Source: Candidatus Colicola caccequi
Lineage (GTDB): Bacteria > Bacteroidota > Bacteroidia > Bacteroidales > Paludibacteraceae
Assembly (NCBI GenBank): GCA_018065205.1
Contig: JAGHTR010000066.1
Coordinates: 1-35,827, forward strand
Direction: 5' to 3'
Length of the DNA: 35,827 nucleotides
Position numbers and translations under genes: made by a program. The notes below the pieces were generated by a model. The model had not been told where the DNA came from. It saw only the letters and a list, made by a program, of their open reading frames with translations, and searched no databases. This document shows, piece by piece, positions 17,669 to 28,452 of the stretch. Position 1 is the stretch's first letter. Each line of letters starts with the position of its first letter.

Positions 17669-18829
17669 CTAAATCCCGTATTCTTTTATCTTACGGTATA
17701 ACGTTCTCTCTGACATACCTAACATCTTAGCCGCTTCGCGCCGATTACCCTGACTTTTTTCTAAAGCTCGAAGAGTTTGTTCCTTAGCTACTTCATCAAT
17801 GCTACTTACCTCTTCTGCATATTCCTCAGCCTCTTCCGCATCATCATAATGGTGAATGGGGGTATCTACTAAGGGTGTGCGAGGTTCTGCAGAATTACGC
17901 ATTAAATCTTGAATCTGCTGCCGCATATCGCTCATATCCCGTTTCATATCAAAAAGTATTTTGTACAGGATATCTCGCTCATTCATGAAGTTGCCTTCTT
18001 GTGTGGTTGTTTTGCCTAACACAATGGCATGTGTACCTTCGTTAACGGGCAAATACTTGCGTAGCGTATCAGCGGTAATGTCATGATTCTTTTCAATAAC
18101 ACTGATTTGCTCTGCAACGTTCTTTAGTTGACGTACATTGCCGTTCCAATAATAACTCTTGAGCAATTCTGTAGCCTCATCGTTTAGTCTAACTGCAGGC
18201 ATCCGATACTTGTCGCTACAATCTAAAGCGAACTTATGGAATAGCATTGGAATATCTTCTTTGCGTTCACGAAGAGCCGGTACTTTAATCTCCACGGTGT
18301 TTAGACGATAATAGAGGTCTTCCCGGAACTTGCCTTCGCGTATAGCCTGCTGCATGTCTATGTTAGTGGCCGCCACTACTCGTACGTTTGTTTTTTGTAC
18401 TGTACTGGATCCCATCCGAATAAATTCACCGGTTTCTAAAACACGCAACAGACGCACTTGAGTGGCTAAGGGTAACTCGCCCACTTCATCTAAGAATAAT
18501 GTTCCACCATTAGCTATTTCAAAATAACCTTTACGATCGGCTTTTGCATCGGTGAAGGCTCCTCTTTCATGACCGAATAATTCGCTGTCAATTGTTCCCT
18601 CAGGGATTGCTCCGCAGTTGATGGCAAAATACGGACCGTGCTTCCGTGCGCTATACGCATGAATAATTTGTGGGAAGAACTCTTTGCCGGATCCTGATTC
18701 GCCGGTTACCAATACACTCAAATCAGTCAAAGCGACTTGCACAGCCACTTCAATTGCGCGATTTAAGCGGTCGTTTTGACCAATGATGCCAAATCGCTGT
18801 TTGATGTTTTGTAACTCTTGAGATGTCAT
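17669..18829 (-). CDS. Sigma-54-interaction-domain (AAA+) Fis-family transcriptional regulator
   Basis: Start MTSQELQNIKQRFGIIG at 18829 (ORF track N-extension lies in tmRNA). Walker A GESGSGKE, ERGAFTDA, GGTLFLDEVGELP, Fis HTH REAAKMLGMSERTLYRKIKEYGI. Confidence 0.93.
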   Translation of the reverse strand: MTSQELQNIKQRFGIIGQNDRLNRAIEVAVQVALTDLSVLVTGESGSGKEFFPQIIHAYSARKHGPYFAINCGAIPEGTIDSELFGHERGAFTDAKADRKGYFEIANGGTLFLDEVGELPLATQVRLLRVLETGEFIRMGSSTVQKTNVRVVAATNIDMQQAIREGKFREDLYYRLNTVEIKVPALRERKEDIPMLFHKFALDCSDKYRMPAVRLNDEATELLKSYYWNGNVRQLKNVAEQISVIEKNHDITADTLRKYLPVNEGTHAIVLGKTTTQEGNFMNERDILYKILFDMKRDMSDMRQQIQDLMRNSAEPRTPLVDTPIHHYDDAEEAEEYAEEVSSIDEVAKEQTLRALEKSQGNRREAAKMLGMSERTLYRKIKEYGI

Positions 18830-18831
18830 AG

Positions 18832-19221
18832 TGGAGATAGTGGGAGTCGAACCCACGTCCAAACAAGGAATCAATACGCTTTCTACATGCTTATCTTGGC
18901 CTGCATTTTCGTGCTTTAACAAGACCCAAGCCACCAATTAAAGCCTTATCTGCTAATGTCTCATTGACGCACCGCAGCTTACGTCAACCATCTTCGCAAT
19001 TTCTGCACCGCTATATCCATTCAGCCGCGAAGCCGGGCTTGGAGCGATGTCTCGTCTCCCAACCTTGTCGGGAGAAAAAAGTAATCTTACTATACTTCAG
19101 ATTAAGCAGCGAGAGCTACATTGTTGTTGCCAGTTAAACTGTTGGACCCTAAGTACGAGCGGTGTCCATGCTCGGCATGCTTACATACCTATTCTGCCTG
19201 CTGTCAAAACCAATTATCCCC
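18832..19221 (-). ncRNA. ssrA: tmRNA
   Basis: Minus strand GGGGATAATTGGTTTTGACAG 5' end and TTTGGACGTGGGTTCGACTCCCACTATCTCCA 3' end pair as acceptor (GGGGATA/TATCTCC); tag frame at 19102-19131 encodes GNNNVALAA*. Confidence 0.96.
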
Positions 19222-19253
19222 AAATGTAGACCTCGCTAGGTCTAATAAGGTGC

Positions 19254-19291
19254 AAAAGAGCATTTGTGAGTAAACTCGCAGATGCTCTTTT
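19254..19291 (-). terminator. Intrinsic terminator between tRNA-Arg and ssrA
   Basis: AAAAGAGCAT..TGTGAG-TAAA-CTCGCA..ATGCTCTTTT long hairpin, T-rich on both sides. Confidence 0.75.
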
Positions 19292-19302
19292 TTCGTTTTT
19301 TG

Positions 19303-19376
19303 TGATCCATGCAGGATTCAAACCTGCAACCCCCACATCCGTAGTGTGGTACTCTATTCAGTTGAGCTAATGGACC
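19303..19376 (-). tRNA. tRNA-Arg (anticodon ACG)
   Basis: Reverse complement GGTCCATTAGCTCAACTGAATAGAGTACCACACTACGGATGTGGGGGTTGCAGGTTTGAATCCTGCATGGATCA; anticodon loop CTACGGA. Confidence 0.93.
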
Positions 19377-19505: not shown

Positions 19506-20681
19506 ATGCGAAAAATATCTGTTTTGAGTCTAATTTTACCATTGGTTGTTTTGCCATCTTGTAAAATTCATGAGTCATTCTCCCGTGCCGATTTAATAGG
19601 TTTTAGTGCAGATGTTCAGCCTAGTTACCATGTGGAGGAAGGTCCGTTCAAGAATTTAGAGCCGCAAAGTGCGCCGTATGACTTGTTGGCGAATGAAGAA
19701 GGATTTGGTGAGTTGTTGGAAGATGTCCGTACCGGTGATAATACGACGTTGTACTATGCTACAGATGTGGCAATTGATCGTATCAAGTATGTCCGTACTA
19801 AGGTGGCGAAACGTGACCCGGAGACCTTATACTACATATTTGTTATATCTGATGGTTTGGATAATGCGTCTGTTAGTGTGTCGCATAACCATCGTCAGAC
19901 CACTTTTATTTCTCGTCCTGAGCAGTATAGAAAACGTATTGCACGTCGATTGAAGAATGTGATGGGCGTAGGCAAGGATTGGAATATGTTGACCGTTTAC
20001 CCGATGGTACTTCGTGGTGATGATTTAGAGCGTGTGCGTAAGGACAATAAAATGTCGGAGCAGGATTTTGATGCATATCTAAGTGAGCAGTTTGATTGCC
20101 TGCGTTATAGTTCGGATGGTGAAGCACCTAAAGTAAATATAAGCACGGACTTTGATGATATTTACACGGAATTGGAGGATGATTTCCGTCACTCTAAGTA
20201 TGAATTCCGTGTATCTAAGGACTTTGTAGGCAAGTTGATCCGTATGACATTAACCTCTTCTAATGGCGATGAAGCTAAGATTGAAGGTGTGCTTAAACGT
20301 TGTGGTGTTAATAAGTATAAGTTGGATAATCTGACGTTGACTAACCTTACTTCTCGCTTTACGGATACGCGCTATTGCAACAAAAAAGGTACCTATCTAA
20401 AGTCTATAGAGACGGATAGCAAGATGAGTAACGTTTATTTCCGCTTACGAGACTTGCGTTTGCCCTCGTCAAAGGCCTTTTTTAATCCGGTTGATGCTGT
20501 TCAATCTTATCAAAATGGACGAGTTTGGCAGACCAATACCGAGTACACCAGAAACGCTACAATACACCCCAATACCTACTGCATCTTTTTGTTAGACGCA
20601 AGTACGTCCATGGGCAAAGATCTGGAGGCGGCCAAGGAGCATATTAAGCGAGTGGTAAGTATGATTAATGCGCCATTCTAA
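19506..20681 (+). CDS. Lipoprotein with apparently circularly permuted vWA domain
   Basis: 391 aa; lipobox VLPSC; N-terminal ADLIGFSADV, GDNTTLYYATDVAIDRI, YIFVISDGLDNAS; C-terminal YCIFLLDASTSMGKDLEAAKEHIKRVV (DxSxS MIDAS motif). Confidence 0.8.
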   Translation: MRKISVLSLILPLVVLPSCKIHESFSRADLIGFSADVQPSYHVEEGPFKNLEPQSAPYDLLANEEGFGELLEDVRTGDNTTLYYATDVAIDRIKYVRTKVAKRDPETLYYIFVISDGLDNASVSVSHNHRQTTFISRPEQYRKRIARRLKNVMGVGKDWNMLTVYPMVLRGDDLERVRKDNKMSEQDFDAYLSEQFDCLRYSSDGEAPKVNISTDFDDIYTELEDDFRHSKYEFRVSKDFVGKLIRMTLTSSNGDEAKIEGVLKRCGVNKYKLDNLTLTNLTSRFTDTRYCNKKGTYLKSIETDSKMSNVYFRLRDLRLPSSKAFFNPVDAVQSYQNGRVWQTNTEYTRNATIHPNTYCIFLLDASTSMGKDLEAAKEHIKRVVSMINAPF

Positions 20682-22483: not shown

Positions 22484-23467
22484 ATGAAACAGGCAAGATG
22501 GATTGCATTGATAATACTGTTGGTTGTTGTGGCTTCTACTCGGGCGCAAACGGATCCGCAGTTAGGTCAATACATGCACTTGCAACAGACGTATAATCCC
22601 GCAGCGGCGGGTGATGGCGACTTAATGCGCGTAGCGGGCATGCACCGCATGCAATTCACGGGCATAAGTAACTTTCCGATGACTACTTACTTTACGTTTT
22701 GTTCGCCATTCGTCATTAACAATACGAAACATGCTGCCGGAGTTCGGTTCTTAAACGATATGTACGGACTGTTCTCAAACCAGTCGTTCCACGTCCAATA
22801 TGCTTATCGCCATAAGATTGGTAACGGGTATTTGAGCGCTGGTGTTGATTTGGGATTTGTCAATATGAGTTTTAAGACCGACAGTATTAATCTTGCTCAA
22901 GTTGCTGCAGAAGTGGGTGAAGGTGGTTTTTTTAGTGAAAACGATCCTGCTATTCCTAAGGGAAGCGGCGAGAAGGGAAGCAATGGGATGACGTTTGATA
23001 TGGGCTTGGGCTTGTACTATAGCGCTCCTACTTGGTGGGCCGGCATCAGTTATAGTCACTTAACCAGACCTAAGGTGGAGTGGAGTGATTTGTCGGAGAT
23101 AACGTTAGTGGGCACGTTGTATATAGCAGGTGGATATAACTGGAAATTGAAATATGCTCCTCAATGGGTGTTAAAACCAAGCCTTATGGTGATGACTGAT
23201 TTTGTGAACTGGGATGTTAACCTCACCATGTTGGCAGAGTGGAAAGAACGAGTTAGGTTTGGATTGGGGTATCGAATTGCAGGTAGTGTGAATGTGTTGT
23301 TAGGGGTGGATATTGTTAGTGGATTGCAATTGGGATATACATTTGAATTGCCGGCAAATAAATTGATTCGTGCAACATATGGTTCTCACGAGATTTATTT
23401 GGCCTACGGATTTAATATATTGAAACCGAAACGAACCAATAAGTACAAGAGTGTTCGATACTTATAG
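22484..23467 (+). CDS. PorP/SprF family type IX secretion system membrane protein
   Basis: 327 aa; signal peptide; QTDPQLGQYMHLQQTYNPAAAG; upstream of gldKLMN. Confidence 0.92.
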   Translation: MKQARWIALIILLVVVASTRAQTDPQLGQYMHLQQTYNPAAAGDGDLMRVAGMHRMQFTGISNFPMTTYFTFCSPFVINNTKHAAGVRFLNDMYGLFSNQSFHVQYAYRHKIGNGYLSAGVDLGFVNMSFKTDSINLAQVAAEVGEGGFFSENDPAIPKGSGEKGSNGMTFDMGLGLYYSAPTWWAGISYSHLTRPKVEWSDLSEITLVGTLYIAGGYNWKLKYAPQWVLKPSLMVMTDFVNWDVNLTMLAEWKERVRFGLGYRIAGSVNVLLGVDIVSGLQLGYTFELPANKLIRATYGSHEIYLAYGFNILKPKRTNKYKSVRYL

Positions 23468-23507
23468 GGACGTCAAAATAACGCAAACAAGACATAAATC
23501 AAACAAT

Positions 23508-24854
23508 ATGAAAGTCGTTAAATTTCTTTCAGTAGCAGCTTTGGCATTGATGCTGGCTGCATGTAACGGCCCTGCAGGAGAACTGGTGGGTGCTCAGAAA
23601 AACACAGATTTTAAGGAAGCCAATCCTTTCGGAATGGTGTTTATCAAAAAAGGCTCTTTTATGATGGGCGAAAATACGCAGTCTGCTATTTTCCATCAGC
23701 CGGACAATACCTTTATGGCAACGGTGGAGGCCTTCTGGATGGACGAAACAGAAATCACGAACAACGAGTATAAACAGTTTGTGTTCTGGGTTCGTGACTC
23801 TATTGCTTACACCCATTTGATTGAAGCCGGCTTGACCGACTATGCTATCCAACCTCGTAACGAGGAGTTTGATGAAGAGAATTATGCCATCAACTGGAAG
23901 AAGAAAATTCCTTGGACAAGTAAAGAGGAAGAAATTCGGGAAGCTTTAGAACCTATGTTTTATGCGGATGGTACCTTGCGTACGATTTCTATGTTTTACA
24001 ACTATTCATGGATGAACTACGACCAAGCTCAATTGCCTCAGAATAAGTTTGATGTGGCTAAGGGACGTTATCCGGAAAATGCGACCTCTCGTGTTGACTC
24101 TTTCTGGGTAGATGAGAACGGCTGGATTCAGGATAGTACCATCATTCGTCCGCTTCGCGAGCCAAAGGATTTGTTGACCAACAAGATTATCAATGTTTAT
24201 CCGGATACAATGGTTTGGATTCGTGATTTCCAATTCGCGTATAACGAGCCTATGTTGCACGGTTATTTCTCATATGCCGGTTATGCTGAATATCCTGTAG
24301 TAGGTGTTACTTGGGAGCAAGCTCACGCTTTCTGCCACTGGCGTACTAATTATTTCCGTAGTGCTAATAAAGAAGTTTCTCAATACTACCGTTTACCGAC
24401 CGAGTCTGAGTGGGAATACGCTGCTCGTGGTGGACGTAAGATGGCTATGTATCCTTGGGGTGGCAATTATGCTCGCGATGCCAAGGGTTGCTTCTTAGCT
24501 AACTTTAAGCCTTACCGTGGTTCATATAACGATGATACCGGATCTATGACGATGCGTGTAGCTCAATTCCGTCCAAACGACTTTGGTTTGTTTGATATGG
24601 CAGGTAACGTGGCAGAATGGACCTCTTCCAGTTTTAATGCAAGTTCTAATACTTACATTAGTGATATCAACCCGGACTTCCAATATATGGCTCGTAAGGA
24701 CGATAGCGATATGTTGAAGAAGAAAGTGATCCGTGGTGGTAGTTGGAAAGACATTTCTTATTATATGCAATGTGGCGTTCGTACGTACGAGTACCAATAC
24801 GAGAGCCGTCCATACATTGGATTCCGTTGCGTTCGTTCCTATATAGGAGACTAA
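23508..24854 (+). CDS. gldK: T9SS lipoprotein GldK/PorK (SUMF1/FGE-like)
   Basis: Likely start MKVVKFLSVAALALMLAAC at 23508; FVIIKKGSFMMG-like, EITNNEYKQFV, RLPTESEWEYAARGG, GNVAEWTSSSF, GFRCVRSY. Confidence 0.93.
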   Translation: MKVVKFLSVAALALMLAACNGPAGELVGAQKNTDFKEANPFGMVFIKKGSFMMGENTQSAIFHQPDNTFMATVEAFWMDETEITNNEYKQFVFWVRDSIAYTHLIEAGLTDYAIQPRNEEFDEENYAINWKKKIPWTSKEEEIREALEPMFYADGTLRTISMFYNYSWMNYDQAQLPQNKFDVAKGRYPENATSRVDSFWVDENGWIQDSTIIRPLREPKDLLTNKIINVYPDTMVWIRDFQFAYNEPMLHGYFSYAGYAEYPVVGVTWEQAHAFCHWRTNYFRSANKEVSQYYRLPTESEWEYAARGGRKMAMYPWGGNYARDAKGCFLANFKPYRGSYNDDTGSMTMRVAQFRPNDFGLFDMAGNVAEWTSSSFNASSNTYISDINPDFQYMARKDDSDMLKKKVIRGGSWKDISYYMQCGVRTYEYQYESRPYIGFRCVRSYIGD

Positions 24855-24895
24855 TCTAAAATCAAATACTTGGTAAAAACAAAAAACTAACTAAT

Positions 24896-25849
24896 ATGGC
24901 AACTGTACAAAATCAAAATGCTTATTCAAGCTGGTATGAGTCTTTCGAAGGAAAGCAAGAAGGTAAATTCATGACGTGGTATCACTCCTACAAAGGAAAG
25001 AACGTTGTTAATATCGTTTATTCGTTAGGAGCATCTGTCGTTATTATTGGTGCGTTGTTTAAGATCATGCACTTCCCCGGAGCAGGTCCTGTGCTGATGT
25101 GCGGTATGATTACCGAGGCAATCTTGTTTATGATTGGTGTATTAGAGTCTCCTCACGAGGAATTCCACTGGGGTAACGTGTTCCCACAATTGATAGAATA
25201 TGGTTCTCCTGACGAGCGCGTTGCTCGTTCCAAGGAGCAACTTGGTATGGCTCCTCAAGTAGGAGGCAATGCCGGTGAGGCTCCGAAAGCAGGTGTTTCT
25301 CCACTTAGCGATGCTGAACTAAATGCATTGAAAGGTTCTTTAAATGATTTGGCTAAGACTGCCGGACAACTCTCTGAGTTAGGTAAATTGGCTACTTCTA
25401 CCAATAAGTTAGGCGAGAAAATGGATGCTGCCAGCGAAGCTGCTGCTAAATATGCAGAGAGCGCTAATGCTTTGGGTGACAAGGCTGCTTCTCTGAATGC
25501 TGCTTATACCACGATTGCTACGGACCTGCAGCAAGTAGCTACCGGCACGAAGGCTTATGAGAAAGAAGTTGGTGCTATGGGTCAAAAGTTGGCTTCGTTA
25601 AATTCCGTTTACGAGTTGCAATTAGCTGCTGTACAAGGTCAAGTGGAGGCTTATAAGGCTCAGGCTAACGCTGTAGCTGCCGCTACCAAGAATGTTGAGG
25701 CTGTCGGTGCTGACTTCCAAAAGATGCAAACTCTGGCTGCAGAATCACTCAAGAGTCAAGAGGCTTACGATGCAGCTCAAAAGAAATTAGCTCAACAAGT
25801 AGCTGATTTGAATAAGATTTATGGTAATATGTTAAATGCACTTGCATAA
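24896..25849 (+). CDS. gldL: T9SS inner membrane protein GldL/PorL
   Basis: 317 aa; two TM helices, KIMHFPGAGPVLMCGMITEAILF, coiled-coil C-terminus. Confidence 0.92.
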   Translation: MATVQNQNAYSSWYESFEGKQEGKFMTWYHSYKGKNVVNIVYSLGASVVIIGALFKIMHFPGAGPVLMCGMITEAILFMIGVLESPHEEFHWGNVFPQLIEYGSPDERVARSKEQLGMAPQVGGNAGEAPKAGVSPLSDAELNALKGSLNDLAKTAGQLSELGKLATSTNKLGEKMDAASEAAAKYAESANALGDKAASLNAAYTTIATDLQQVATGTKAYEKEVGAMGQKLASLNSVYELQLAAVQGQVEAYKAQANAVAAATKNVEAVGADFQKMQTLAAESLKSQEAYDAAQKKLAQQVADLNKIYGNMLNALA

Positions 25850-25904
25850 GGCATTGCATCAATCTAAGTAATACTTTCAACTATTAACTTTAAAATCTAA
25901 AGAA

Positions 25905-27506
25905 ATGGGTGGAGCAAAAAACTGTCCGGAAACCCCGAGACAAAAAATGATTGGTATGATGTACTTGGTGTTGACCGCCATGTTGGCCTTGAATGTAAGT
26001 GCCGATATCATTAACGGTTTCACTAAACTGCGTCATTCTATGGAATCTTCTATTAAATCAACGGACGCTCGTACCGAAGATATAATGAAGATTTTCGAGG
26101 CTGCCTACAGCAAGGACGAAGGTGGCAGAAAGAAATATGGTGATTGGTGGATTATCGCTCAGACTAACAAAAAGATGAGTGATGACTTATATGATTACCT
26201 GGAGCATTTTAAATTGGATATTGTTAATATGGTGGATGGTGAGAACTACACCACGATGCCGGACGATATCAAGAATGGCTCTGAAACCAATAAACCTCAC
26301 CAATACGCGTTAAATATGAAGGACGCGAGCGGGCGTACGAACGCGGAGGAACTGCGCGCTCGTATGGACCTCTATCGTCAGTATATGTCCTCTGCCGATT
26401 CCGAGTGTCTCCAAAATAAGATGAAGGATGCTGCTTTCGCACATGAATGGGAGCAGAAAACAGCCATGGTGAATTCTTTGTTCTCTACCGGAACGGTTAC
26501 TAACCAAGAGGGTGAGACTATTCCTTGGGAGCAGTCTATCTTCGAGGAGATGCCTGCCGGTGCCGTTTTGGCATTGCTGACTAAGTATCAGAACGATATC
26601 CGTATGGTGGAGAATGACTTCTTGAATTTCTTTTACAAATCTGCCGGATCTTCTGACTTCGTGATTAACTCCGTACAGGCATTAATCTTGCCGGATAATG
26701 GTGAGTACATCATGCAAGGCGGTCACTATCGCGCACGCATCGTTTCGGCTGCTGTGGATACAACTAACCTGCCTATGGTGTATATCAATGGTAATGAATA
26801 CCCTGATGGTGTGTATGATTTGGTAGCAAACCAAATTGGTCAACACACCTATACCGGTTATATGCTGATGCCGGGTGATACAACTCACTATAACTTCAAG
26901 GGTCAATACACCGTTGGTGCTCCTTCTGCATCTATCTCCAATATCGATATGAACACAATCTATACCGGATATGAGAATAAGTTTAATATCTCCGTCCCCG
27001 GTATGGGTGGTGATAAGATTAAAGTATCGGCTACCGGAGCTACCGTTACTCAAAAGAATGGTTTGTATATCATTCTGCCTAGCGAGAGCAGCAAGACTGT
27101 TAAGATTTCTGTTCATGCTGAAGTAGATGGACGTACTGTTCTGATGGGTGCTAATGACTATAAGGTTAAACCGCTGCCTAAACCAAGTGCTTTCTTGCTA
27201 TCCGGTGCAGACACCTACGATGGTACCGAGCGTATTGGTATTAAGGCATTGAAGAGTGGTGATGCCCATCTGGAGGCAAGTTATGGCCCGGATGGTGTAT
27301 TGGATTTGCCTTTTACTATTGTTAGTTTCGAGATTTATGCCGGAGGTCGCTATCTGAAGGCACAAGGTAATAAGTTCAGCCGTGATATGATGACGGCTAT
27401 TGGTAAACTGCGTAGTGGTGATGTGCTCAATATCATGACTATTAAGTATCGTGAACCAAGTGGTAAGGTTAATACATTGCCGAACTTGACATTAGGTCTT
27501 AAATAA
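25905..27506 (+). CDS. gldM: T9SS protein GldM/PorM
   Basis: 533 aa; GGAKNCPETPRQKMIGMMYLVLTAMLALNVSADIINGF. Confidence 0.95.
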   Translation: MGGAKNCPETPRQKMIGMMYLVLTAMLALNVSADIINGFTKLRHSMESSIKSTDARTEDIMKIFEAAYSKDEGGRKKYGDWWIIAQTNKKMSDDLYDYLEHFKLDIVNMVDGENYTTMPDDIKNGSETNKPHQYALNMKDASGRTNAEELRARMDLYRQYMSSADSECLQNKMKDAAFAHEWEQKTAMVNSLFSTGTVTNQEGETIPWEQSIFEEMPAGAVLALLTKYQNDIRMVENDFLNFFYKSAGSSDFVINSVQALILPDNGEYIMQGGHYRARIVSAAVDTTNLPMVYINGNEYPDGVYDLVANQIGQHTYTGYMLMPGDTTHYNFKGQYTVGAPSASISNIDMNTIYTGYENKFNISVPGMGGDKIKVSATGATVTQKNGLYIILPSESSKTVKISVHAEVDGRTVLMGANDYKVKPLPKPSAFLLSGADTYDGTERIGIKALKSGDAHLEASYGPDGVLDLPFTIVSFEIYAGGRYLKAQGNKFSRDMMTAIGKLRSGDVLNIMTIKYREPSGKVNTLPNLTLGLK

Positions 27507-27528
27507 TAGAAATACAAAACCAAGTGAT

Positions 27529-28452
27529 ATGAAAAAAATTAGTGCATTAGTGCTTTTGTTGAGTTTGGCTTTTATTAGCGCTCAAGCACAGCATCCGATT
27601 AATTCGTTCTTCGCTCCCGATGGTACTGTTCGTTTGGAGACGCAAGAGTTGACAGAAGCAGCAGATTCTGTGGTTACTATTCAACATCGTACTGAAGATG
27701 TAGTTTGGCGTCGTGATATCTATCGTATCATTGATATGCGTCAAAAACAGAACTACCAGTTGTATTTCCCCGTTGAGCCGGATGATCCGACGTACATGAG
27801 TCTTTATCGCTTAATCGTGGATGCCGTTCAAAATGGAATGACTATCTTCCGTCGTAGCGAGCGTGTGCTTAAACCCGTTCTGTCGATGGAGAATATTGTG
27901 CCTCGTAACGAAATTAAGGACCAATTTATGGTAGGTGGTATCGGTGAATTAGATCGTGAGGATGAGACATCTTATGTCCTCAATTACGATAGTATTGCTG
28001 ATACGTTCTCTTTCCAACCCTATAACTACAACACCTATGTGCGTAACCAACTTAAGTATTTGCTGTATGAAGTGATCTTCTTTGATAAATCAACTTCTCG
28101 TATGTACCGCAAAATCGTAGCCTTAGCTCCGCTACAACCGGACCAGGCATCGGGTGATGAAGAAAGCCCTGCTGAGTTTATGCGTACGTCGGTTAAGTTC
28201 TGGGTTCTGTATGACCAATTACGTCCCTACTTGGCTTCGCATTACCTGATTCCAAGCCAAAACGAGGCTAAGCGTGTAACGTTTGAGGAGTTCTTCGAAA
28301 AGCGTTTGTTCTCGTCTTACATCGTAGGTGAAGGTAATATCTACAATCGTATGATTTTGGATTATTGCCTCACAGAAAAAGATGCTAAGCAAGAGCAAGA
28401 TCGTATCGAATACGAACTGTTGACATTTGAGCAAGACCTCTGGGAATATTAA
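27529..28452 (+). CDS. gldN: T9SS protein GldN/PorN
   Basis: 307 aa; VVWRRDIYRIIDMRQKQNYQLYFP; follows gldM. Confidence 0.93.
   Translation: MKKISALVLLLSLAFISAQAQHPINSFFAPDGTVRLETQELTEAADSVVTIQHRTEDVVWRRDIYRIIDMRQKQNYQLYFPVEPDDPTYMSLYRLIVDAVQNGMTIFRRSERVLKPVLSMENIVPRNEIKDQFMVGGIGELDREDETSYVLNYDSIADTFSFQPYNYNTYVRNQLKYLLYEVIFFDKSTSRMYRKIVALAPLQPDQASGDEESPAEFMRTSVKFWVLYDQLRPYLASHYLIPSQNEAKRVTFEEFFEKRLFSSYIVGEGNIYNRMILDYCLTEKDAKQEQDRIEYELLTFEQDLWEY

Follow-up and report, generated by a model that had tools for sequence, protein, structure and literature searches.

The vWA domains of integrins, complement factor B and pilus adhesins depend on the position of the strand that bears the DxSxS motif. 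Natural circular permutation of a domain of the nucleotide-fold type has been described for the circularly permuted GTPases (cpRAS; PMC2430557), an analogous event in another superfamily; in that case it is the GTPase that is described as permuted and not its associated vWA domain. In the relevant passages of papers that combine permutation with vWA terms, the permuted domain is likewise another one or the term occurs in a reference, and no earlier description of a permuted vWA domain was recognised in the open-licence literature searched, the remainder of which was assessed from titles and abstracts, so that a report may exist elsewhere. The window analysed here, a 35,827-nucleotide stretch of DNA from the gut bacterium Candidatus Colicola caccequi (Bacteroidales, Paludibacteraceae; contig JAGHTR010000066.1), contains a gene whose product is very probably a lipoprotein anchored in the membrane and bearing a vWA (MIDAS) domain that has undergone natural circular permutation. 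The protein would still fold into one vWA domain with one metal site and would be likely to bind ligands in the envelope in a metal-dependent manner. We consider it fairly probable that this is the first natural permutation of the vWA/MIDAS fold to be described, and that it became fixed a single time in the Bacteroidales and then entered both lipoproteins and large multi-domain envelope proteins, some of the genomes still having normal-order sisters alongside it.

The standard order of vWA segments is not found in the window protein, which runs from strand 2 to the last helix of the vWA domain, continues through a beta-rich domain and ends with strand 1 and helix 1, the DxSxS motif lying in its last 36 residues (Table 1). 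The first-pass annotation had placed ADLIGF soon after the lipobox and the DxSxS segment within the last ~35 residues, and both placements hold: ADLIGF begins nine residues past the lipobox cysteine, the DxSxS segment is the protein end, and all of the strings quoted in that annotation are present in the open reading frame. The beta-rich region that it set between the two halves also exists, with a size of about 125 residues instead of the ~200 proposed, the surplus being the end of the vWA core.

Table 1. Features of the permuted-vWA gene and its product in the window.
Feature	Coordinates	Strand	Evidence
Permuted-vWA lipoprotein gene, 391 aa	19506..20681	+	single intact ORF; homologues at 95, 53, 44, 36% identity; dN/dS 0.03 vs 95% relative
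Signal peptide with lipobox LPSC; lipidation predicted at Cys19	19506..19562	+	sequence; same-place LSSC/FTSC/FASC in relatives
vWA N-half, strand 2 (ADLIGF) to last helix, residues 28-231	19587..20198	+	canonical-profile A5 positions 171-284 match 19701-20060; rotated-profile positions 127-332 cover residues about 24-254
MIDAS Thr80, in loop GDNTTLYYATD	19743..19745	+	Thr in 32/33 permuted members
MIDAS Asp116 of DG strand, in YIFVISDGLDN (D116-G117)	19851..19853	+	Asp in 33/33
Beta-rich domain, residues 232-355	20199..20570	+	three-piece alignment with normal-order sisters
vWA C-half, strand 1 and helix 1, residues 356-391 (NTYCIFLLDASTSMGKDLEAAKEHIKRVVSMINAPF), D364/S366/S368	20571..20678	+	Pfam VWA profile positions 3-32; D/S/S in 33, 31, 32 of 33

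The lipobox, recognised by eye at residues 16–19, is missed by the strict lipobox pattern because the Pro at position −2 is off consensus; the cysteine itself is present, as it is at the same place in relatives. A surface-export signal of the K-(D/E)2 type behind this cysteine is known for Bacteroidetes lipoproteins, having been defined in species other than this one (PMC5080379). No such signal stands behind the cysteine of the window protein, where the sequence reads CKIHESF, which suggests that the protein may face the periplasm; some multi-domain permuted relatives read CKKDDDE or CKKEEGE at this place, and several relatives with such K-(D/E)2-like signals may be surface adhesins. The homologues at 95% identity come from metagenome-assembled genomes of Candidatus Colicola equi and of a horse-faeces Paludibacteraceae bacterium, and the dN/dS measured against them shows that the gene is under purifying selection. 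Type IX secretion genes (porP, a gldK-like gene with an FGE-sulfatase domain, gldL, gldM and gldN) lie downstream, at 22484–28452. Flanking genes are common only to near-identical relatives and are not conserved in the others; the proximity of the type IX secretion genes is therefore probably coincidental, and a function deduced from the neighbourhood was rejected. A tmRNA (tag GNNNVALAA) and a tRNA-Arg are located just upstream of the gene on the minus strand (18831–19376), and a mechanically called ORF (17669–18937) overlaps the tmRNA, probably because its TTG start makes it over-long.

A search for homologues in the Bacteroidales, which the first-pass annotation had proposed, drew on genomes from the genus, from the order and from one additional family together with one scan of named genomes, and identified 33 distinct proteins that share the permuted order of the window protein. 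These comprise stand-alone proteins of about 375–490 aa, including the window protein, and proteins of about 560–1130 aa whose permuted unit is attached to FGE-sulfatase, fn3, Big_2, Lcl_C or other stretches. The stand-alone forms terminate 23–38 residues after the start of the DxSxS segment, the length expected if the break falls where helix 1 ends. Matches outside the order align mainly with the vWA core, and no relative was found in the viral contigs scanned. In two proteins of one genome (L005 and L010, G057), an FGE-sulfatase (SUMF1-like) domain is fused to the permuted vWA unit; a domain of this type also occurs in the window's GldK-like gene. One permuted protein (L047, G858) has lost the MIDAS serines, its C-terminal motif reading VLDGDLDP, and in another genome (L061, G892) two short frames match both ends of a permuted protein while the middle is absent, probably as a pseudogene remnant.

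The residues that mark membership of the vWA family (DxSxS, Thr and Asp) are present, distributed over its N-terminal and C-terminal parts in the window protein. Across the 33 permuted proteins, the five MIDAS positions are conserved in 33 (Asp), 31 (Ser), 32 (Ser), 32 (Thr) and 33 (Asp) members, a pattern by which a metal site shared by both protein ends is strongly implied. Retention of the order in 33 homologues, together with native-order matches to Pfam VWA that fall on the expected out-of-order parts of the profile, places the arrangement beyond chance. The first-pass annotation had itself raised the reading that the N-terminal half and the C-terminal strand and helix are remnants of two domains, the second of them truncated or decaying, and the occurrence of broken relatives (the L061 remnant and L047) could be taken to favour it. 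It is nonetheless very improbable, and was rejected: the same complementary split recurs in 33 proteins that form one clade and have nearly invariant MIDAS residues, the window gene has a dN/dS of 0.03, and profile comparisons revealed neither a second DxSxS in the N-half nor a TDG segment past the C-half in any permuted member. The halves are complementary in every permuted member, the N-half lacking its own DxSxS strand and helix and the C-half lacking all else, and a truncated second domain is excluded on this account.

In twelve related proteins (L019, L020, L021, L023, L040, L041, L060, L062, L063, L065, L070 and the distant L024) these pieces stand in the order usual for vWA domains, and both orders can be found within one genome, as in G377 (L011 and L030 permuted, L041 normal) and G025 (L056 permuted, L065 and L070 normal). 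These sisters share the beta-domain and vWA pieces of the window protein but differ from it in layout: the beta domain begins the unit, a complete vWA domain follows, and a beta-domain hairpin with the consensus CYVP..GKVxWT ends it. The hairpin that counts as the first of the beta domain thus lies C-terminal of the vWA domain and the remainder N-terminal of it, whereas in the permuted proteins the hairpin directly precedes the remainder. Most normal-order proteins extend further at the C-terminus, in a part that looks by eye like an outer-membrane beta-barrel, without confirmation by Pfam. Two normal-order relatives (L022 and L033, in G052 and G210) have matches split over two frames, with stop codons inside the matches in G052, and are possible pseudogenes or sequence errors.

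A native-order profile of the permuted proteins matched 11 of the 12 normal-order proteins as two long pieces in reversed order, and the twelfth, L024, which is distant, as two weak reversed pieces only (15.9 and 20.2 bits). The rotated profile, a kind of search that the first-pass annotation had suggested, gave a single colinear match to each of the 12, and the total score was higher (e.g., 184.5 vs 173.5 bits). In the reciprocal search, a normal-order profile matched the permuted proteins as positions 141–344 followed by 6–136, almost without gaps; at the join of the old ends, positions 344–346 run into 3–6 with gaps of about 0–12 nt in the best cases, and the new break point lies near positions 136–142. 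Homologues thus exist in both cyclic orders, the old ends are joined without loss, and there is one new break point. As judged from the profiles, these mirror-image matches are the defining signature of circular permutation at the level of a two-domain unit: the unit of beta domain and vWA domain is rotated as a whole relative to the sisters, so that the former termini meet within the beta domain and the new ones lie between helix 1 and strand 2 of the vWA domain. The presence of normal-order sisters in the same bacterial group therefore indicates a real natural permutation and no misreading. An artefact of gene order or assembly was rejected as having a negligible probability: most of the genomes, including that of the window, are fragmented draft metagenome assemblies, but the same order occurs in open frames in many independent assemblies and genera.

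The claim of the first-pass annotation that joining the C-terminus to the N-terminus rebuilds a vWA domain is borne out not only by these sisters but also by known profiles and solved structures, matches to both of which increase on rotation. In native order, the window protein scored 13.7 bits with Pfam VWA (PF00092, cut-off 23.8 bits), its C-terminal strand and helix matching profile positions 3–32; after rotation it scored 21.7 bits with VWA (cut-off 23.8) and 23.1 bits with VWA_2 (PF13519, cut-off 27), narrowly short of either threshold. The VWA or VWA_2 score rose on rotation in every case tested, the VWA score from 20.7 to 37.7 bits for L010, from 20.2 to 33.6 for L014 and from 17.5 to 28.5 for L004, and rotated L003, L004, L010, L014, L017 and L032 pass at least one of the two cut-offs. 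Taken alone, either half usually falls short of the cut-off, and for this reason the permuted class tends to escape ordinary profile searches; searched singly, the window protein gave nothing useful in NCBIfam and no match in the PDB with phmmer. A rotated profile of 12 vWA parts matched 46 PDB sequences at E-values up to 0.1, almost every one an established vWA protein (complement factor B, C2, integrin alpha-X and alpha-M, collagen VI and proximal thread matrix protein 1 are among them), compared with two matches for a native-order profile of 14 members, the two profiles differing somewhat in membership; proximal thread matrix protein was matched by the latter as out-of-order pieces. When the profile was a core one derived from normal-order proteins only, rotation gained 36–46 bits in the multi-domain clade and about 0–7 bits in the subclade of the window protein, which carries an insertion in the strand-2 region, and a scan of cut points with this profile peaked broadly at the rotations that reunite the halves in the multi-domain clade and was nearly flat in the window's subclade. 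An AlphaFold model of the window protein, made from three sequences (the protein itself and its two 95% relatives), had a pLDDT of 33 and was set aside as a guide to the fold and its packing.

In a tree of the rotated units, permuted and normal forms are separated on one branch, and in a tree with normal-order outgroups, two of which have long branches, the permuted clade receives a support of 96/90 and one change is needed. All permuted members fall in one clade with normal-order outgroups, and by this phylogeny the permutation is a single derived event in the Bacteroidales. The ancestor would have had the order beta domain followed by vWA domain, with one more beta-domain hairpin behind the latter, and one Bacteroidales lineage would then have re-cut the unit by fusing the old ends inside the beta domain and opening new ends between helix 1 and strand 2. 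Circular permutations of this kind usually arise when a unit is duplicated and then trimmed, and we infer this origin for the permuted vWA unit; no duplication intermediate was found among the relatives.

In the permuted protein, the C-terminal strand and helix would fill the central position of the sheet beside the N-terminal half to give one vWA domain, one Mg2+ or Mn2+ ion would be held jointly by the C-terminal D364, S366 and S368 and the N-half residues T80 and D116, and the beta domain would be an insert that closes the chain. Sequence does not distinguish this packing from an intermolecular one, in which the C-terminal strand and helix complete the vWA domain of a neighbouring molecule and the MIDAS forms only in an oligomer, and the beta domain parts the halves by about 125 residues. 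Such a domain swap is nevertheless improbable: the ends of ordinary vWA domains are near each other, and in one relative (L032, a 307-aa frame) the beta domain is absent and the last vWA helix leads into SALVMLVLDCSGS through a short linker of about 10 residues, which suits packing within one chain. With VWA_2, L032 scored 40.1 bits in one stretch when rotated vs 30.2 bits in two pieces in native order, and its lack of a beta domain means that the permuted vWA domain exists as a unit of its own. L032 is the single protein of this kind seen, from a genome that is 68% complete, and the one further genome from that family yielded no additional case. By analogy with other vWA adhesins, the protein would most likely bind a protein or another ligand at the cell envelope in a metal-dependent way, an activity to which we give about even chances.

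Permuted proteins and normal-order sisters existing side by side offer a natural experiment on how the vWA domain folds, which chain ends it tolerates and how signals of force or ligand travel from the MIDAS to the termini. With the domains described by Pfam VWA and VWA_2, the permuted proteins share the DxSxS, Thr and DG residues of the MIDAS, and when rotated they match these profiles and the vWA chains of the PDB; in contrast to those domains, their first strand and helix come last and a beta domain links the old end of the vWA domain to them. PilB of Streptococcus sanguinis (PMC8179133) offers a functional model, in that a MIDAS-bearing vWA module is attached to another envelope module, but it is a type IV pilin with the vWA domain in normal order and an unrelated partner module.
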